DNA of 64,000 nucleotides, taken from Actinomycetota bacterium (GTDB lineage Bacteria > Actinomycetota > CADDZG01 > WHSQ01). Positions 3,242 to 9,240 of the stretch are shown here, piece after piece; position 1 is the first letter of the stretch, and every line of letters begins with the position of its first letter. A model generated the notes under the pieces. That model was not told where the DNA came from, ran no database searches, and saw only the letters and a list, made by a program, of their open reading frames with translations. Made by a program: the position numbers and the translations under genes. The stretch lies in the NCBI GenBank assembly GCA_030446465.1, contig JAUJNI010000002.1, forward strand, positions 139,486-203,485, in the 5' to 3' direction.

Positions 3242-3318
3242 GGCAGGGTGGAGCAGTCTGGTAGCTCGCCGGGCTCATAACCCGGAGGTCGCGGGTTCAA
3301 ATCCCGCCCCTGCAACCA
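3242..3318 (+). tRNA. tRNA-fMet (CAT), initiator
   Basis: A full cloverleaf with the CCA end encoded. Acceptor stem is GGCAGGG/CCCTGCA, so position 1 (G) does not pair with position 72 (A), an initiator hallmark. The anticodon stem has three consecutive G-C pairs (GGG 3271-3273 with CCC 3281-3283), the second hallmark. The anticodon CAT is at 3276-3278 in loop CTCATAA, and the T arm contains GGTTCAAATCC. Its 3' half is repeated exactly 3640 bp downstream. Confidence 0.95.
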
Positions 3319-3343
3319 CAAAGGCCCTGGTAACAGGGCCTTT
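3272..3343 (+). repeat. Direct repeat copy 1: tRNA-fMet 3' half plus terminator
   Basis: These 72 bp recur at 6912-6983 at an offset of exactly 3640 with a single difference (A3332 versus C6972). The repeat begins in the anticodon stem and ends with the terminator hairpin. Weaker similarity (roughly four bases in five) continues for about 40 bp beyond. A tRNA 3'-end repeat bounding a segment is the usual footprint of integrase-mediated insertion, but here tandem duplication also explains it. Confidence 0.93.
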
Positions 3344-3350
3344 GCTTTTT
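3320..3350 (+). terminator. Rho-independent terminator after tRNA-fMet
   Basis: The perfect 10-bp stem AAAGGCCCTG/CAGGGCCTTT has a 4-base loop and is followed by GCTTTTT. The hairpin begins two bases after the CCA end. The same hairpin with one loop change is present at 6960-6983 behind the tRNA fragment. Confidence 0.8.
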
Positions 3351-3377: not shown

Positions 3378-3640
3378 CTAACGGCGGAAATCGGATTCCA
3401 AGTCCGCGGGGTACATAAGTCCCTCCCGGTCGATCTCGTAGCGCTCCACCGCATAGATTCGGTCGGACAAGAGCAGGTCAGGATGGTCGCCGGCCTCCAG
3501 GTAGAGCTGGACCGCCTCCTGGAGCGACTCGTAGAGCTCCTTGAGCGTCTCGCCGGCCGCGGGCAGCCAGGTAGCTGCGGACTCTCAGCCCAATAGCTAT
3601 CGGTCTCGGAGTCCCGATGGATGGCGACGTCGATCTCCAA
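3378..3640 (-). pseudogene. HicB-family antitoxin, frameshifted
   Basis: Reading from a TTG at 3640 gives a typical HicB start (MEIDVAIHRD...SPQLPGC). The frame is lost near 3556-3563. With one base restored the next frame continues as AGETLKELYESLQEAVQLYL and ends at TAG 3378-3380 with YPADLESDFRR, which makes a normal antitoxin of about 88 residues. No HicA toxin gene is adjacent. It begins three bases after the stop of the upstream HicB-like gene, as expected in an operon. The one-base loss may be real decay or a sequencing error in a GC-rich run; similar lesions in neighbouring genes favour decay. Confidence 0.7.
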
Positions 3641-3643
3641 ATG

Positions 3644-3861
3644 TCATCTCTTCGCCAGGGTGAGCTCGTAAGTGACCACCTCAGCCCCTTCGGGGGTTCG
3701 TCGACCTTCTCTTCCAGGACGAACTCGATCGCGCCCAGGACGTATCGCTCCGCGCCCTCGCGGGTATTACACGCGGTGCCGATGATGGACAGGACCGGAA
3801 CGCTGTAGCCCCATAGGTCGACCTCGTGGTCGTAGAAAATCTCGACCGGAAGCTGCGCCAC
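3644..3861 (-). pseudogene. HicB-like antitoxin, frameshifted paralogue of the gene at 7.7 kb
   Basis: Translation from GTG at 3861 gives VAQLPVEIFYDHEVDLWGYS and then SIIGTACNTREGAERYV, clearly paralogous to the intact HicB-like protein at 7718-7939. After EPPKG a base is missing in a C-run at 3685-3688. Adding one restores AEVVTYELTLAKR and a TGA at 3644-3646. The GTG start overlaps the preceding gene's stop as TAGTG, indicating translational coupling. No partner toxin remains in this copy of the locus, whereas the 7.7-kb copy keeps hicA. Confidence 0.7.
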
Positions 3862-4121
3862 TAGCCTGCCCTTTCTCTTGAGTCGGGACGCCACCGTGGT
3901 TCAGGAACCCCCCAGTCCCGTTCACGCGACACTTCCAACCAGAGATCCATAGCGATCAGGATCTCTCGCAAGGCCACTTCTGCGCTGTCGCCGCTGACGG
4001 AGCACCCACTCAGGTCGGGAACGATGCTGATCCACTGACCGTCTTCCTCTGACCAGAAGATTGCGATTCCGTATCGGTCCGTTCTCTCGTCGTTAGGCGC
4101 CGTGGGCGTAACTCCAGACAG
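3861..4121 (-). CDS. HicB-family antitoxin with uncertain (possibly CTG) start
   Basis: The reading frame encodes DRYGIAIFWSEEDGQW followed by SIVPDLSGCSVSGDS and an amphipathic helix (ALREILIAMDLWLEVS), which is the HicB antitoxin fold; it ends at TAG 3861-3863. No ATG, GTG or TTG lies at a sensible place. A CTG at 4119-4121 is preceded by GGGAGG about nine bases upstream and would give a 17-residue leader before YGIAIF, so a CTG start is possible. Otherwise the 5' end is lost. It overlaps the end of the YgiT-like gene and its stop overlaps the next start (TAGTG). Confidence 0.55.
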   Translation of the reverse strand: MSGVTPTAPNDERTDRYGIAIFWSEEDGQWISIVPDLSGCSVSGDSAEVALREILIAMDLWLEVSRERDWGVPEPRWRPDSRERAG

Positions 4122-4380
4122 GATGCTTGTCCTCCCGCTCGGGTGGCGTGGCGAGGATCCGGTCGATCTCTTCGGCGGTTTCGGCCAGGAGGTAAATCTC
4201 GCCGCACTGTTTGCAAGTTCCCCCCGGGACGCCGGTGATGACCCGCACCGATGTCGAGCCTCGGCTGACCGGATAAGTGAGCGTCACAACGTCCTCGATT
4301 ACCGGTCCCATGCAGACCGTGCAGTCGAGCGGATACGTCTGTCGTTCTTCTGGTTGGGGGAATCTCATCGCCTCAATCAT
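4093..4380 (-). CDS. YgiT-type zinc-finger antitoxin (MqsA-like N-terminal domain)
   Basis: A protein of about 95 residues with two CxxC pairs, CTVC and CKQC, the zinc knuckle of YgiT/MqsA-type antitoxins; the last part EIYLLAETAEEIDRILA is typical of the short YgiT form. Such proteins usually neutralise and autoregulate a partner toxin. The ATG at 4380 (MIEAMRFPQ) overlaps the stop of the DUF4258 gene by eight bases, and an in-frame ATG at 4398 is an alternative. The order DUF4258 then YgiT matches known TA pairs. It looks intact, unlike its neighbours. Confidence 0.75.
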   Translation of the reverse strand: MIEAMRFPQPEERQTYPLDCTVCMGPVIEDVVTLTYPVSRGSTSVRVITGVPGGTCKQCGEIYLLAETAEEIDRILATPPEREDKHPVWSYAHGA

Positions 4381-4723
4381 CGCGCTTCTCCCTTCCATGG
4401 GTCCTTTCGTCGACCCAGAACGGCGCCTCTGGCCGGTAGACGGTTACCACTTCGACCCGGCGACTGAAGTCGGCTTCGAACAGGCGCACGTTGGCGACGA
4501 TGTGGATGGGCTCGTCCGGTCCCGTGTAGCCCAGCAAGACCTTCGTCCGTCCCTCCCTACGGGTGGGGTGGTCCTCGATGACTTCGCAGCTTCTCCCCGC
4601 CAACATGACGTCCTCTTTCGTGGGGTTGTCGTAGCTCATCTCGAGATGTGCGTGGAATCGGAAGAGAACGTGGCTCTCCGAAAAGGCCCATCCCAGAGCG
4701 ACTTCCTGATCCGCCTTCTCCAC
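4373..4723 (-). CDS. DUF4258 family putative toxin
   Basis: A protein of 116 residues from GTG 4723. Its core carries the DUF4258 pattern: HAHLEMSYDNPTKEDV near residue 24, then VLLGYTGPDEPIHIVANV, ending VVTVYRPEAPFW. DUF4258 proteins resemble RelE/MqsR-type RNases and are commonly encoded just before a YgiT zinc-finger antitoxin, as here. The GTG start overlaps the upstream chimeric ORF's stop (TAGTG). Toxin activity is inferred from family and context only. Strand and spacing show one operon running from about 4866 down to 3378. Confidence 0.68.
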   Translation of the reverse strand: MEKADQEVALGWAFSESHVLFRFHAHLEMSYDNPTKEDVMLAGRSCEVIEDHPTRREGRTKVLLGYTGPDEPIHIVANVRLFEADFSRRVEVVTVYRPEAPFWVDERTHGREKRDD

Positions 4724-4866
4724 TACGACGACACCCCTGGACCGGACCTGCGGACGAGGTTGGCGATTGTTTCGGCTTCCATCGACGGAATCGCGTGGCT
4801 GTAGACGTCCATCGTGAAGGCGACATCGTGAAAGATGGCGATCGCGTATCGCGGGAACTCATCCAT
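4723..4866 (-). pseudogene. Chimeric ORF: HicB N-terminus fused to tyrosine-recombinase C-terminus
   Basis: A complete 47-codon frame with an ATG start and TAG stop. Residues 1-14 (MDEFPRYAIAIFHD) are the start of a HicB antitoxin, close to YGIAIF in the gene at 3861. From residue 15 the sequence becomes VAFTMDVYSHAIPSMEAET, the C-terminal box of phage-type tyrosine recombinases with the catalytic tyrosine in DVYSH, then IANLV. The fusion point lies near 4824. It appears to be an illegitimate-recombination scar joining two remnants and leaving an open frame. It is the best evidence that an integrase once operated at this tRNA-linked locus. Confidence 0.7.
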
Positions 4867-4870
4867 TCCG

Positions 4871-5075
4871 TCAGGCCACGTAGTGGTGAACAGCGACCTC
4901 GACGCCCGTCTCGGCAGTCTCTCGGCTGAGCTGGAGGAGTCTTTCAGTGACTCCCGATCGGTGTGGTCCTCACCGCAGGAGAGCAGATCTCGGCCGGCAC
5001 GTCCTTGAAAACGACGGTCGGCCCATTGCGATCCAGGGTGACAGTCGCTTGCGCTGGTTTGGTGGTACTTCAAAA
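4871..5075 (-). pseudogene. Decayed YgiT-type zinc-finger antitoxin
   Basis: Joining three frames recovers the YgiT pattern: ATVTLDRNGPTVVFKDVPAE, then ICSPCGED, then ETAETGVEVAVHHYVA ending at TGA 4871-4873. At least two one-base shifts separate the pieces and no start codon or first CxxC is left. It lies between the DUF4262 stop (5088) and the HicB-integrase chimera. Its sequence differs from the intact YgiT at 4093, so it comes from a different TA pair. Confidence 0.6.
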
Positions 5076-5087
5076 CGTCAGCGACGT

Positions 5088-5522
5088 TCAAGGATCCGCC
5101 AGCTTGGGGCGCAGTCCGCTCCGGATGACCTCCAGAGCCCGAGGCTCCGGGCGTGGTTCCCCGAGTGCTCCGTAATAGGCGACCCAGAGGGCAAAGGTGT
5201 CCTCGACGAAGTGCTTCGGAGCCACGTCCGCGAACCGATAGTCCTTGTCTCGAAACCCAACACTGGTGCCGCCGGCGGTAAACCGGTGCCCCTGGAGGAC
5301 CATGTCTCCGATCGAGTTGAGCAGGTGACCCGCCGATTCCGGCCGGAGGCCAACGACGGCCAGCTCGGGATGGCCGAGCTCGACTAGGCCGATGGTGTAC
5401 GCCCACGAACGAGTACGCCTGTCGCCACTCACCGGTACTACTGCCCATCCGGCGCGCTCGATCGATCCGTGAACGTGGAAGAGGACCTCGTCGAAGCTGG
5501 CTCCACTGCACATCATGCACAT
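5088..5522 (-). CDS. DUF4262 domain protein
   Basis: A 144-residue protein with the DUF4262 signature. It opens with MCMMCSGASFDEV (CxxC start typical of the family) and has RSWAYTIGLVELGHPELAV in the middle and GLRPESAGHLLNSIG next. Function is unknown; members are frequent in actinobacterial accessory regions. In the second copy of this locus (8157-8246) only the first eight codons survive. The upstream flank, including the start codon, lies inside a 271-bp direct repeat. Confidence 0.82.
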   Translation of the reverse strand: MCMMCSGASFDEVLFHVHGSIERAGWAVVPVSGDRRTRSWAYTIGLVELGHPELAVVGLRPESAGHLLNSIGDMVLQGHRFTAGGTSVGFRDKDYRFADVAPKHFVEDTFALWVAYYGALGEPRPEPRALEVIRSGLRPKLADP

Positions 5523-5770
5523 GGGGATGATGATGACGGGGGGCTACGACACGGTCGGCTCGTTCCGGGCGCAACCGGGCGGGCCATGGCTGGAGCTCAG
5601 GCGGAGCCGGCCGTCTCCACGGGAGCCGGGTGGGCCAGAACCTTCGCTCGGGCGGCCTGACGCGCGGTCACCCGGCGCACCACCTCGATCGCCAAGACGT
5701 CCAGGGCAGGCTCAAGACGTCGGTCGCCAGGGTTATTCGGCTGAGAGCATCACTTCGGGAAGTGAGTTCA
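5500..5770 (+). repeat. Direct repeat copy 1: DUF4262 5' end plus DUF4328 3' end
   Basis: This segment matches 8224-8495 with about four differences: two substitutions (one in the GGGGATG stretch, one near 5730) and two one-base deletions in this copy. It covers the first codons of DUF4262, the intergenic gap and the last 58 or so codons of DUF4328. Copy 2 lies in the intact DUF4328 gene, so copy 1 is the truncated one. Confidence 0.93.
5597..5770 (-). pseudogene. 3' fragment of DUF4328 membrane protein gene
   Basis: Equivalent to the end of the intact gene at 8321-9022. The stop codon TGA is at 5597-5599, the sequence is near identical to about 5770, and the similarity then ends abruptly. 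Two one-base deletions relative to the intact copy break the frame. It has no promoter or start and is taken as a remnant created by the tandem duplication. Confidence 0.85.
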
Positions 5771-5840
5771 CGTGTCGCCCTGCTTGTAGACGTGCCCTCG
5801 TCTCAAGACGCCTCTCCCGTCAAGCGTTCATTTCGCAGTT

Positions 5841-6209
5841 CTAGGTTCGCAGGGCACGCGCCATCGGAAGGAGATGTTCGGGGGTCGATCCAAAGTTCTC
5901 CGCGACCTCCGGCGCCGAGACGGTGTCGTGTAAAGCATCCGCCATGGCACCGAGTACCTCTTGGAAGTCATCGGGAAGATCCTCTGGCCATGGTCTCTCC
6001 CACTGGTCCGTGACATCCATCAAGAACATGTTGACGGTGTCACAGTTAGCGTCTGTTCGACCTTCCGGGGAGGCCAAGAACTCCAGAACGGAGACGATTG
6101 AACCCTTGAGCCGATCGAAGCCGGGGGCCGGCTCAGTTAGGAGCTCCTCGTATAGCCGGTGAACGAGCGGCCGTAGCTCTGACGACGCCCCTTTGCTGTC
6201 CGCACTCAT
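5841..6209 (-). CDS. Acidic hypothetical protein
   Basis: From ATG 6209 (MSADSKGASSELRPLVHRLY) it encodes 122 residues, mostly helical and acidic, with FLMDVTDQWERPWPEDLPDD in the middle and ending LPMARALRT. An ATG at 6230 is an alternative; longer extensions upstream are Ser/Arg-rich and look non-coding. I do not recognise the family. Size, acidity and setting resemble the small immunity-like proteins found among TA cassettes, such as 7037-7402 nearby, but that is only a contextual comparison. Confidence 0.55.
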   Translation of the reverse strand: MSADSKGASSELRPLVHRLYEELLTEPAPGFDRLKGSIVSVLEFLASPEGRTDANCDTVNMFLMDVTDQWERPWPEDLPDDFQEVLGAMADALHDTVSAPEVAENFGSTPEHLLPMARALRT

Positions 6210-6345
6210 GTAAGCCTCTTCAAACCCCATGCCTGTCCCCGCAGTCGACTCCTCGAAGTCGCTTTCTATTCTCTCTTCTGCGTCTTGGATTTCGACTAAC
6301 ACAGACTTGCCCCTCGGTGCGCAGGGCCTCAGTAAGCTGCTGACG

Positions 6346-6678
6346 ATGAGCGACGCGGATATGCGACAGCTTGAGGAGGCTGTTCTCGAGGATCTTCGAG
6401 AGGACGATCTGCCGCTCATTCATGTCTGGTGGCATGCCAACAGCCTGTACCCGTCTCTGCCGCTCAGTGAGCGACTCGCGCTCGCAGAGCGGGCCGTCTC
6501 CTCTCTCCTCAGCAAACGACGTGCCGGCTTAGTAAGCGGCACGTGGCCGGAAGGGCCGACACCCGATTCCGAGCTGTTAGGGCCCGAGGAGTCTGAAGCG
6601 GTTCTGCGTGAGTACGCAACCTGGGTTCCCGAACGGGATGGACCGATGTACTACCTGGAGGAGGCACCCCCTCCATGA
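6346..6678 (+). CDS. Hypothetical protein
   Basis: From ATG 6346 (MSDADMRQLEEAVLEDLRED) it encodes 110 residues with a conserved-looking core HVWWHANSLYPSLPLSERLA followed by ERAVSSLLSKRRAGLVSG and a tail containing WVPERDGPMYYLEE. Small actinobacterial proteins of unknown role share this helical pattern of an aromatic patch followed by a basic helix. Upstream in-frame codons to 6229 are possible but look non-coding. It is the only plus-strand gene in the TA region and diverges from 5841-6209. Confidence 0.55.
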   Translation: MSDADMRQLEEAVLEDLREDDLPLIHVWWHANSLYPSLPLSERLALAERAVSSLLSKRRAGLVSGTWPEGPTPDSELLGPEESEAVLREYATWVPERDGPMYYLEEAPPP

Positions 6679-6911: not shown

Positions 6912-6983
6912 GGCTCATAACCCGGAGGTCGCGGGTTCAAATCCCGCCCCTGCAACCACAAAGGCCCTGGTCACAGGGCCTTT
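6912..6983 (+). repeat. Direct repeat copy 2: tRNA-fMet 3' fragment plus terminator
   Basis: Identical to 3272-3343 except C6972. It lacks the acceptor 5' strand, D arm and 5' anticodon strand, so it is a tRNA remnant and not a gene. The retained terminator hairpin (6960-6983) may still stop transcription. It marks the start of unit B, whose layout (tRNA end, TA genes, DUF4262 start, DUF4328) repeats unit A. Confidence 0.93.
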
Positions 6984-7036
6984 AGTTTCATCGGCCCTCG
7001 CGCTGAACCGGCGATTTGCCAACCGCTTGCTAGGAC

Positions 7037-7402
7037 TCAGCCGACGTACTTTAAATACTGCTTCGACATCTCGGAGCCGAGCAACGGCTTGATTTGAGGT
7101 CGATCCCACAGATCTTCAAGCAACGACACGGCGATCACGTTCTCGACGGCCTCATCGCCGCTCCCATAGGCCTCCTCCAGAAAGTCGAACAAGGGCTTGA
7201 GCTGTGCCGCCTCGTCCTCATCGAGCCGTTCCTCCACAAAGCGACGGACATCCCCGAAGAAGAGGTGAGGCAGCATCTCTTCGTTGAACTCCTCATGCTC
7301 GTTCAGAAGCGGTCGCAGCTCTGGGAATCGATCGGCAAGTTGTCGACAGAATGCGACGGAGGACTCGGGCGCCGAGTACTCGGGCACCGAGTACTCGGGC
7401 AT
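7037..7402 (-). CDS. Small acidic protein, possible DUF7674-like immunity protein
   Basis: From ATG 7402 it encodes 121 residues. After a short repeated start (MPEYSVPEYSAPESS) come FCRQLADRFPELRPLLNEHE, PHLFFGDVRRFVEERL and a region ENVIAVSLLEDLWDRP. This helical, acidic arrangement resembles DUF7674-type proteins, which are suspected immunity factors; the match is by pattern only. The start overlaps the stop of the preceding gene as TGATG, indicating translational coupling with 7402-7713 and, further up, hicAB. Confidence 0.6.
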   Translation of the reverse strand: MPEYSVPEYSAPESSVAFCRQLADRFPELRPLLNEHEEFNEEMLPHLFFGDVRRFVEERLDEDEAAQLKPLFDFLEEAYGSGDEAVENVIAVSLLEDLWDRPQIKPLLGSEMSKQYLKYVG

Positions 7403-7713
7403 CAGCTGGCGTCTGCCAACGCATCTTGGAAGCGAGACCAGACTGCCCACACGTCCTTGGCGAACTGGGCGAACAGCGCATCGGGATTCGAGGCCCAGTC
7501 GAAGCTGAACATCCGACGAAGCTGCCGTTCCGCGTCGCTCACCGTCTCAGCACTCTTGAGGCCAGGCATTAGCTGGGTCGCCTCCATGTCGTACTCGTCG
7601 TCTGGTGCCGATCCTCCGCCAGCGGCGCCGAGGGGATCGTGTTCATAGAGCACGGCCGAGAGCTCTGAGTGAGCCCTCTTGTACGCCTCGGTTGCCTTCT
7701 GCTCGAAGGACAT
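7402..7713 (-). CDS. Small acidic hypothetical protein
   Basis: A 103-residue protein starting MSFEQKATEAYKRAHSEL. It contains VLYEHDPLGAAGGGSAPDDE followed by YDMEATQLMP, a 'DPxG...APxDEYDxE' motif seen in several small bacterial proteins of unknown role, and ends in a helical segment (FAQFAKDVWAVWSRFQDAL). It starts four bases before the hicB stop and ends in a TGATG overlap with the next gene, so the four genes 8156 to 7037 form one operon. The function is not known. Confidence 0.65.
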   Translation of the reverse strand: MSFEQKATEAYKRAHSELSAVLYEHDPLGAAGGGSAPDDEYDMEATQLMPGLKSAETVSDAERQLRRMFSFDWASNPDALFAQFAKDVWAVWSRFQDALADAS

Positions 7714-7717
7714 CGCA

Positions 7718-7939
7718 CTAACTGGCTTTGGCGATTCGAATGTCGTAGGTGAGGACCTCAGCGCCCTCGGGTGGATCGTCGTCTTCGGCTTCCAGTGTGA
7801 ACTCGATCGCCTCTAACGCGTACTTCTCAGCATCCTCCCGCGTCAGGCAACCCGTCCCGATGATGTTCAGGGCGGGCACGTCATAGCACCAGTATCCGGT
7901 GTCGGTATCCGGAAAGATCTCGACCTTGAGCTGCATCAT
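7718..7939 (-). CDS. hicB: HicB-like antitoxin
   Basis: A protein of about 73 residues starting MMQLKVEIFPDTDTGYW, then DVPALNIIGTGCLTREDAEK and ending in a short strand (LTYDIRIAKAS). This is the compact HicB antitoxin fold expected to bind and block HicA. GGAG sits seven bases before the ATG at 7939, which decides this start over the upstream ATGs (7945, 7972). It directly follows hicA. A frameshifted paralogue is at 3644-3861. Confidence 0.8.
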   Translation of the reverse strand: MMQLKVEIFPDTDTGYWCYDVPALNIIGTGCLTREDAEKYALEAIEFTLEAEDDDPPEGAEVLTYDIRIAKAS

Positions 7940-7949
7940 CCTCATTCTC

Positions 7950-8156
7950 CTATAGGAGCTCTCGGAGTTCATTTAGCGTGTATCCGAACTTCTTGGCGAC
8001 GCCGGCGAGCGCCGGATTGCCGAGGTCTTCGCCTTCGTGGTAGGCCCAGGTCGCCGTCCTGTCTCCCTTCCTCATCTGACGATGGGATCCCTTCCGCCGG
8101 ACTTCGACCCACCCGTCGCGCTTCAAGGCGGCTAGTACCTGCTTGGCTTTCGGCAT
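7950..8156 (-). CDS. hicA: HicA toxin (YcfA-like mRNA interferase)
   Basis: A 68-residue protein with the HicA double-stranded-RNA-binding-like fold: MPKAKQVLAALKRDGWVEV, then the catalytic histidine motif RKGSHRQMRKGD and the closing helix KKFGYTLNELRELL. HicA toxins cleave mRNA and are silenced by HicB. The length is typical and no lesion is visible. Its ATG follows the TAG of the tiny ORF at 8157-8246 with no gap, and hicB starts just downstream. Confidence 0.88.
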   Translation of the reverse strand: MPKAKQVLAALKRDGWVEVRRKGSHRQMRKGDRTATWAYHEGEDLGNPALAGVAKKFGYTLNELRELL

Positions 8157-8246
8157 CTACTTCCCAGAGCCCCGGATGAGGTTGGCGATCGTCTCGGCGA
8201 TGTTCATGATCTTGGCGAAGTTCGCTCCACTGCACATCATGCACAT
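8157..8246 (-). CDS. 29-codon ORF: DUF4262 start fused to another tail
   Basis: The frame reads MCMMCSGANFAKIMNIA, then ETIANLIRGSGK and TAG, and hicA begins on the next base. Its first eight codons are the DUF4262 start seen at 5522. The end (AETIANLIRGSG) resembles the tail of the integrase remnant at 4723-4866 (AETIANLVRRSG). It therefore looks like the scar of a deletion that removed DUF4262 and an integrase. It may act as a leader peptide that couples ribosomes onto hicA, or be meaningless. Confidence 0.4.
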   Translation of the reverse strand: MCMMCSGANFAKIMNIAETIANLIRGSGK

Positions 8247-8495
8247 GGGAATGATGATGACGGGGGGCTACGACACGGTCGGCTCGTTCCGGGCGCAACC
8301 GGGCGGGCCATGGCTGGAGCTCAGGCGGAGCCGGCCGTCTCCACGGGAGCCGGGTGGGCCAGAACCTTCGCTCGGGCGGCCTGACGCGCGGTCACCCGGC
8401 GCACCACCTCGATCGCCAAGACGTCCAGGGCCAGGCTCAAGACGTCGGTCGCCAGGGTCATTCGGCTGAGAGCTATCACTTCGGGAAGTGAGTTC
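8224..8495 (+). repeat. Direct repeat copy 2: DUF4262 5' end plus DUF4328 3' end
   Basis: Partner of 5500-5770. Here the repeat runs without a break into the complete DUF4328 gene, so this is the ancestral side of the duplication. The similarity stops at 8224 on the left, within codon eight of the DUF4262 start. Confidence 0.93.
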
Positions 8496-9022
8496 GCGTC
8501 ACGGCTCATCCGCAGAAGCAGGCGGCCGGCGATTTCACTGAGGATGAAGAATGCCCACCACCAATTGATCAGGGGACTAACCGGTCGACCGGCTGCTTGT
8601 TTTGCGGGTGGCAATGCCGGGTCGCTCGCCCGCCAGATGTCGTTCATGACTTGCTTGGGGCGCACGAAGTTGAAGAAGGGGACGAACCAGCCACCGACTG
8701 CCCACCCCGTCCCGTACCGGAGAGGGGCGGCCCCCAGCGGCAGCAGGTTCTTATAGGCGCGGTGGAACCACCACACGAAAACGATCGCGGTGATCAAAAA
8801 GAGCGCTATTTGGATCACCGCAATCAGCTGCTGCCGCTCGTCATTGGCGAGTGCGTCGGCGCGACCAATTGCCTCGCCACCGGCAGCCCGATCCAGTAGC
8901 GCCAGCTCCGAGAGCCCCGACACGACCGCGAGGGCATCGACGATCAGGGATATCCCCAACAGCGTCAGCAGCACCGATGCGATGCGGGCGATCGGACGGT
9001 AACCAGGTGTCGCCCTGCTCAT
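8321..9022 (-). CDS. DUF4328 domain membrane protein
   Basis: A 233-residue protein from ATG 9022, which has GGGGGG four bases upstream; an in-frame ATG at 9076 is less likely. It shows the DUF4328 pattern: two N-terminal helices (IASVLLTLLGISLIVDALAV, LIAVIQIALFLITAIVFVWW), then FHRAYKNL and the signature GTGWAVGGWFVPFFNFVRPK followed by QVMNDIWRAS, and more helices. The family is a membrane protein of unknown function. The 3' end is duplicated at 5597-5770. Confidence 0.85.
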   Translation of the reverse strand: MSRATPGYRPIARIASVLLTLLGISLIVDALAVVSGLSELALLDRAAGGEAIGRADALANDERQQLIAVIQIALFLITAIVFVWWFHRAYKNLLPLGAAPLRYGTGWAVGGWFVPFFNFVRPKQVMNDIWRASDPALPPAKQAAGRPVSPLINWWWAFFILSEIAGRLLLRMSRDANSLPEVIALSRMTLATDVLSLALDVLAIEVVRRVTARQAARAKVLAHPAPVETAGSA

Positions 9023-9240
9023 GCTTCCCCCCACATCGAACGCCCCGACGCCACAGTCTATGTGGCAGGTCATCAAAATGAACCGCCCTCTAAGCTAAGA
9101 TGGAGGTCTCGGGTTGTTGGCAGGCCCTCGGCGGCTGCCGGCTTCGAATCGGCGCCATGTGTAAGTTGAGCGGGCGTGCTCCTGGGCTAAGACGACTAGA
9201 TCGACGCGGACGGGCGGTGTTCAGGTTGGAAACAGAAGAG

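Follow-up and report, generated by a model that had tools for sequence, protein, structure and literature searches.

A hicAB toxin-antitoxin pair and two acidic genes as the probable cargo end of a decayed tRNA-Met-targeting integrative element

The hicAB pair and the two small acidic genes behind it (ac1 and ac2) lie in a 64,000-nucleotide stretch of an Actinomycetota genome, referred to here as the window. Together they probably represent the cargo end of an integrative element that targets tRNA-Met and has lost its integrase, with hicAB as an addiction pair that is still selected, ac1 and ac2 as passenger cargo, and ac2 as an orphan immunity gene. This reading draws on comparisons of sequence that reveal the anatomy of the element, relics of its integrase, a copy of the tRNA end, toxin-antitoxin (TA) pairs of varied types in the same slot, constraint on hicAB between two genomes, and genes of the ac2 family behind toxin-type tips elsewhere.

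The intact form, in G007, a genome of the same family, has an excisionase-like HTH gene, a tyrosine integrase, hicA, hicB, variable cargo and a 3' copy of tRNA-Met, in this order. HicAB would constitute a type II toxin-antitoxin pair whose hicA start directly adjoins the integrase stop codon. Most probably it would serve to penalize loss of the element, and it may have outlasted the integrase in the window because it is still selected. The two acidic genes would have travelled as passengers, and the ac2 product would neutralize an incoming toxin bearing one particular tip domain.

Gene layout

An earlier note on this DNA described hicA, hicB and two small acidic genes running together. These genes are real and form four open reading frames on the minus strand, the last two joined by a TGATG overlap of 1 nt (Table 1). 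The spacing between hicA and hicB is 4-13 nt, the hicB start being placed at 7936 with 7939 or 7945 as alternatives, and hicB and ac1 are separated by 4 nt. The term acidic is also correct for both proteins (pI 4.44 for ac1 and 4.31 for ac2), yet acidity alone says little about them because HicB is even more acidic (pI 4.05). The GC content at third codon positions (GC3) is 0.75 in ac1 and 0.74 in ac2, and their GC by codon position resembles that of neighbouring genes with family matches. A comparison of ten window proteins with known defence-system proteins (PADLOC) gave no match at E<=1.

Table 1. Features of the locus and of the adjoining elements, in window coordinates.
Feature	Position	Strand	Match or remark
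Intact tRNA-Met (CAT), integration target	3242-3318	plus	ARAGORN
HicB of another type, relic split between two frames	3381-3640	minus	77/83% to G010 HicB
Second hicB copy	3650-3855	minus	60% to hicB
YgiT/MqsA-type zinc-finger partner	4093-4398	minus	TIGR03831 E 1.3e-5; 55% to G010 copy
DUF4258 toxin-type gene, proximal element	4373-4723	minus	PF14076 E 4.5e-8; 56% to G010 copy
Integrase C-terminal scrap, proximal element	4741-4824	minus	87% to G007 integrase 353-383
G003-type YgiT relic, three pieces	4874-5060	minus	70-96% to G003 YgiT
Integrase N-terminus scrap, probable	5778-5817	minus	81% DNA over 43 nt to G007 integrase start
Partial tRNA-Met 3' copy and terminator hairpin	6912-6988	plus	77 bp, 96% to 3272-3348
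GTTGGCAAATCG, changed copy of GTTAGCAAATCG repeat	7012-7023	minus	element end
ac2, 121-aa DUF7674 protein, probable orphan immunity type	7402-7037	minus	PF24722 E 5.7e-22
15-bp repeat, 2.9 copies	7359-7401	minus	codes N-terminal extension of ac2; low confidence in AF2 model
ac1, 103-aa helical acidic protein, rare family	7713-7402	minus
hicB, 72-aa HicB-type antitoxin	7936-7718	minus	type assigned by homology
hicA toxin gene	8156-7950	minus	PF07927 E 3.8e-12, above cut-off
29-codon chimeric leader	8157-8246	minus	DUF4262-type start fused in frame to integrase tail
Last 13 codons of lost integrase	8160-8198	minus	tblastn 92% to G007 integrase residues 372-384, E 0.019
DUF4262-type start and DUF4328 3' end region	8208-8499		duplicated at 5484-5773
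DUF4328 gene	8321-9076		PF14219

The 15-bp repeat reported at the start of ac2 is equally genuine (TRF score 72). Within it the 12-bp palindrome CCGAGTACTCGG occurs twice (7372-7398), and the window has no further match at up to one mismatch; 0.35 are expected, and 6 of 100 shuffles reach two. The repeat is absent from six aligned relatives, one of which (L025) carries an extension of similar length and other sequence.

An integrative element at tRNA-Met

In the G007 element, a full tyrosine integrase of 384 aa (PF00589 E 7e-22) stands between an HTH_17 gene (PF12728) and the hicA and hicB genes. The integrase stop codon finishes at L016:7087, and the hicA start codon opens on the next base, 7088. 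On the 3' side of hicB lie a 404-aa gene and an opposed 198-aa gene, neither with a Pfam match, and then a partial copy of tRNA-Met. Both ac1 and ac2 were looked for in the G007 element, and neither was found.

The window has a corresponding distal element. Its partial tRNA-Met copy lies just behind ac2 and forms the attachment end; the G007 counterpart is 82% identical across 130 nt. The GTTAGCAAATCG repeat found in changed form in the window also marks the corresponding end of the G007, G006 and G010 elements, and GTTAGCAAATCGTTAGCAAAT repeats precede the terminator at the element ends of these three genomes, with single, changed copies at both element ends in the window. These element-end repeats (GTTGGCAAATCG, GTTAGCAAATCG and GTTAGCAAATCGTTAGCAAAT) may be arm sites of the integrase.

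At the other side of hicAB, the DNA match between the window and G007 extends from the integrase tail through the pair (85% over 481 bases). The surviving tail is part of a chimeric leader whose first half derives from a duplication (5484-5773 and 8208-8499, 97% identical); position 8246, given as the end of the locus in the earlier note, is the start of this reading frame. The leader's stop codon abuts the hicA ATG, and its translation may drive that of hicA.

Closer to the intact tRNA-Met, a proximal element matches the G010 element and contains, as extra relics, a G003-like YgiT gene and the second hicB copy. The HicB relic split between two frames matches the HicB that adjoins tRNA-Met in G010. 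The region between tRNA-Met and the DUF4328 gene is read as a tandem of two or more decayed elements. In arrangement, the contigs of G007 and G006 agree with the window, with a TA-bearing element and its partial tRNA copy further out and a second integrase nearer the intact tRNA-Met; two such integrases are present in each (L016 and L078 in G007, L077 and L084 in G006), on contigs ending in the same tRNA-Met. Two small open reading frames lie between the window elements (5841-6230 and 6349-6678), the first of which, scored from 6210, has a GC3 of only 0.44, possibly in a wrong frame.

The layout of a tRNA-targeting integrative element is complete at both ends in G010 (L075) and is represented by one end and the integrase in G007, and the window retains it as relics. 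An intact integrase of the element itself was not found in the window, which holds the three scraps listed in Table 1. Another integrase in the same genome (G000:C6:18639) could act on the window element in trans.

HicAB and its constraint

The window HicA and HicB are 94% and 90% identical to their G007 counterparts. HicB has no Pfam match of its own and is assigned to the HicB type because it is 36-38% identical to the G006 HicB, which passes PF15919; it is also 56% identical to the G003 copy and 60% to the second window copy. The locus thus combines a HicA domain with an adjacent HicB-type protein, the two components of a HicAB type II toxin-antitoxin system. A search of the PDB with the HicB sequence gave nothing useful, and the length of the protein would leave little room for a separate DNA-binding domain. 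The window HicA contains the GSH motif. The G006 HicA (L077:7655-7864) fits the HicA family as well, and inspection by eye suggests that the His of this motif is missing there.

A search of 61 genomes with this HicA, its own included, gave matches in three, namely its own, G007 (94%) and G032 (40%). Between the window and G007, hicA shows 4 nonsynonymous and 30 synonymous differences (dN 0.026, dS 1.25) and hicB shows 10.5 and 19.5 (dN 0.065, dS 0.58). The resulting dN/dS is about 0.02 for hicA and about 0.11 for hicB, and both genes are intact. The pair therefore looks constrained and still selected, in an estimate that comes from one sequence pair because one close relative was found in 396 genomes; the low ratios could reflect the G007 branch. 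HicA is predicted to be toxic and to act in addiction.

This constraint bears on whether the whole stretch might be decaying wreckage in which hicAB and the acidic genes are non-functional and kept by chance. The integrase is indeed in scraps, the HicB of the other type is split between frames and one YgiT gene is in pieces, but hicA and hicB are intact with low dN/dS against G007, and ac1 and ac2 are open with gene-like GC3, which makes the idea improbable.

ac2 and the DUF7674 family

The ac2 product matches PF24722 (DUF7674) over residues 20-118, a family for which Pfam gives no function. Its AF2 model is all-helical (pLDDT 89.9); no relative was found among solved structures by sequence, nor by a fold search at E<=0.001. 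Close relatives of ac2 did not turn up. DUF7674 is present at E<=1e-5 in five of 396 genomes of the phylum, its own included, and at this threshold only the genome of the window has both DUF7674 and ac1.

Ten DUF7674 loci outside the window were collected (L008, L018, L019, L020, L021 and L024-L028), two of them from Rhizobium (L008 and L028). At 26.5 and 26.1 bits, the proteins of L008 and L027 narrowly miss the Pfam cut-off of 27; the L028 copy has a broken frame, and its match is limited to 51 residues. Plasmids contributed two Rhizobium DUF7674 genes; a second DUF7674 query gave 12 plasmid matches, with context taken from the record of H1/H3 only. The locus counts represent a small, pattern-limited sample, since no more than 5 DUF7674 loci came from a large genome collection.

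At four of these loci (G212, Botrimarina, a Thermoleophilaceae MAG and an Actinobacteria MAG), DUF7674 is immediately preceded by a gene that ends in the same toxin-type tip, with junctions ranging from a 4-nt overlap to a 1-nt gap. Two of these tips are 57-58% identical to a third and the G212 tip is 33% identical, and profile matches range from E 2e-30 to 4e-45. The training set of the profile held the tips of L025, L027 and L018; the true L026 frame was outside this set and still matched (E 2e-30). The tip itself has no Pfam family match. Searching plasmids with the tip returned five records, of which two were fetched. In a Methylorubrum megaplasmid, DUF7674 lies directly behind the tip (E 7.9e-11). 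At the Rhizobium etli tip locus no DUF7674 match was obtained with a weak alignment profile, which also missed the Methylorubrum gene.

The tip is missing at the other six loci, three of which have other toxin-related surroundings. At L019, some 400 nt separate DUF7674 from a preceding protein that matches Tox-HDC weakly, below the cut-off, and that resembles an Rhs core in one part. The broken copy at L028 is one gene away from a hemagglutinin-repeat protein (PF13332), and the L008 gene is found in a plasmid stretch together with a colicin E3/pyocin S6-type gene and Imm63. No toxin neighbourhood is visible around DUF7674 at L020, L021 and L024.

The family is found recurrently and directly behind tips, in four of ten loci and once more when approached from the tip side, as would suit a polymorphic-toxin immunity family. 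Beside ac2 itself no cognate toxin was found. The tip profile found nothing in the window, and in the rest of the genome no convincing tip appeared, the best match having E 0.007 with no supporting alignment in a second search. Since DUF7674 sits behind tips elsewhere and no convincing tip was found in its own genome, ac2 is read as an orphan immunity protein, the word orphan reflecting a tip absent from the window and a weak search of the genome. Judged from these neighbourhoods, ac2 is most likely directed against toxins of rival bacteria, and less likely to be a third component of the TA system. The tip would be toxic and ac2 would protect against it.

The earlier note had proposed that hicAB and the acidic genes may form an extended TA module. 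In such a module, ac1 and ac2 would be functional partners of HicAB, for instance a second antitoxin or a chaperone. The shared strand, the 4-nt and 1-nt junctions, the acidity of the proteins and the coding-like codon composition of ac1 and ac2 agree with such a module, but the distribution of the genes does not. With a HicA profile (E<=1), no HicA was detected at the ten DUF7674 loci or at the two loci with ac1 homologues, the nearest relative of this hicAB, in G007, leads into unrelated genes, and the partner that recurs with DUF7674 in other genomes is a different one. The acidic genes are thus found separately from hicAB, an outcome that the earlier note had itself set against its proposal, and the extended module is now highly improbable. 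The case of hicAB and ac1/ac2 illustrates that an extended TA module should not be deduced merely from genes being neighbours. The accompanying suggestion of an immunity role is supported by the DUF7674 genes directly behind toxin-type tips, and this support applies to ac2 only.

ac1

The ac1 protein has no Pfam match above cut-off. Its AF2 model, built from one sequence, consists of four helices (pLDDT 82.7), and neither a sequence comparison with solved structures nor a fold search at E<=0.001 produced a relative. At E<=1e-5, ac1 occurs in three of 396 phylum genomes including its own, the relatives being confined to G113 and G142 (26% identity), where they lie beside neither hicAB nor DUF7674. 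A match in G030 (E 3.2e-4, 43 residues) was left out of the counts and is not among the alignment-search matches at E<=1e-5. Viral contigs and plasmids yielded no ac1 relative. Sequence motifs had pointed to DUF1871; this assignment was rejected, as PF08958 was found at E<=10 in none of four genomes, including the genome of the window and the two with ac1 homologues.

The main rival for ac1 is that it encodes a toxin and ac2 its antidote, the two forming a TGATG-coupled toxin-immunity or TA pair that hitchhikes behind hicAB. The 1-nt overlap of ac1 and ac2 recalls the DUF7674 genes that overlap a tip-bearing gene by 1-4 nt in three of four cases. However, ac1 is small and acidic and has no match to the tip profile, and its homologues in G113 and G142 are without DUF7674, which was found in neither genome. 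Such a pair is rather unlikely. As cargo of the element, ac1 is probably a second immunity-type protein, to judge by its size, charge and place.

An exchangeable slot behind the integrase

A survey of 396 genomes of the phylum for relatives of the integrase found matches at E<=1e-70 in 50. Up to four candidates were scored per genome. Of the 71 matches, 30 were retrieved with their surroundings, each from a different genome; L078 and L084 were read additionally, and seven further same-family integrase matches stand outside the counts. Selected open reading frames behind the integrases were put through Pfam, and the rest, including most of the 22 loci from other families, were judged by eye.

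A TA pair lies behind the integrase in five of the eight fetched same-family loci (G007, G006, G003, G010 and G009). The G006 slot holds a different HicAB (PF07927 E 2e-9, PF15919 E 7e-7) that overlaps the stop of an integrase split between two frames. G003 has DUF4258 and MqsA/YgiT (PF14076 E 3.5e-22, PF15731 E 7e-8), and G010 has DUF4258 (PF14076 E 4.5e-11), a YgiT-like protein that is 55% identical to that of the window and under the Pfam cut-offs, and HicB (PF15919 E 2e-8). In G009, a VapBC pair (PF09957 E 9e-10, PF01850 E 2e-17) starts 28 nt behind the integrase. No TA pair was recognizable by eye behind the second integrases of the G007 and G006 contigs (L078 and L084), where the slots hold a 175-aa gene, or a 62-aa gene and an opposed helicase-like gene; with these two loci the count becomes five of ten. 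The other 22 fetched loci gave one marginal TA case, in G395 (L053), where an HTH gene accompanies a PIN_3 match below cut-off, and in several of them the integrase lies within about 100 nt of a tRNA. The G010 element, with both ends seen, measures about 3.5 kb, and the G003 cargo slot alone about 8.5 kb. Integrases in viral contigs were only 23-31% identical, and those in 73 phage records were all below 60% identity.

A bolder but less probable proposal can be entertained tentatively. The slot of this tRNA-Met element family may act as an exchangeable addiction cartridge, filled by two HicAB types, DUF4258/YgiT or VapBC. In the HicAB forms, the abutting or overlapping stop and start codons would tie translation of the toxin to that of the integrase, and the TA pair would report integrase expression. 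After decay of the integrase, the new short leader (8246-8157) would keep the coupling, turning the cartridge into a host gene with orphan immunity genes behind it. The same integrase slot with different TA pairs forms a natural series, and comparisons within it allow a test of the idea that TA pairs prevent the loss of integrated elements.

Comparison with known systems

Two aspects of the locus have precedents, namely TA pairs that stabilize an integrated element and orphan immunity genes that adjoin a recombinase. The mosAT pair stabilizes the integrated element SXT, of about 100 kb (PMC2654960), and hipAB of GI21 does so within the 48-kb CGI48 at tRNA-Trp (PMC8978831). Like these, the tRNA-Met element carries a TA pair on a site-specifically integrated element, with a proposed role against its loss. 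Unlike SXT and CGI48, the G010 element is far below such sizes, and its family has a TA pair that directly adjoins or overlaps the stop codon of the integrase and varies in type among relatives.

Recombinase-associated acquired interbacterial defence (rAID) of Bacteroidales consists of orphan immunity genes behind a tyrosine recombinase (PMC12247911). The window resembles it in combining a tyrosine recombinase with co-oriented short immunity-type genes without a cognate toxin. In place of an array, however, it shows a recombinase relic followed by hicAB and only two immunity-type genes; the distal element has a TA pair in front, attaches at tRNA-Met and belongs to another bacterial group. Tycheposons, bordered by a tRNA, carry a tyrosine recombinase and variable cargo, use tRNA-Met among their targets and span 4-200 kbp (PMC10872708). 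They are likened to the present element by tRNA border, recombinase and variable cargo, that is, by layout, recombinase type aside. The G010 element falls below the size range given for them, although the G003 cargo slot would fit within it.

Next to these systems, the tRNA-Met element, with its exchangeable TA pair directly at the stop codon of the integrase, reads as a variation on a known kind of element. A non-exhaustive search found no literature on DUF7674 or on an exchangeable TA slot behind an integrase. Compared with the Pfam entry, which is silent on function, the link of DUF7674 to a toxin-type tip is drawn here from gene neighbourhoods, and the family thereby gains a concrete, testable partner in one specific tip. 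Among the tip-bearing proteins, that of the Thermoleophilaceae MAG (L026:4802-5992) begins with a stretch resembling a pilin-type (class III) signal (PF04021 at E 0.08, short of the cut-off), which, if real, would be an unusual delivery start for a polymorphic toxin.
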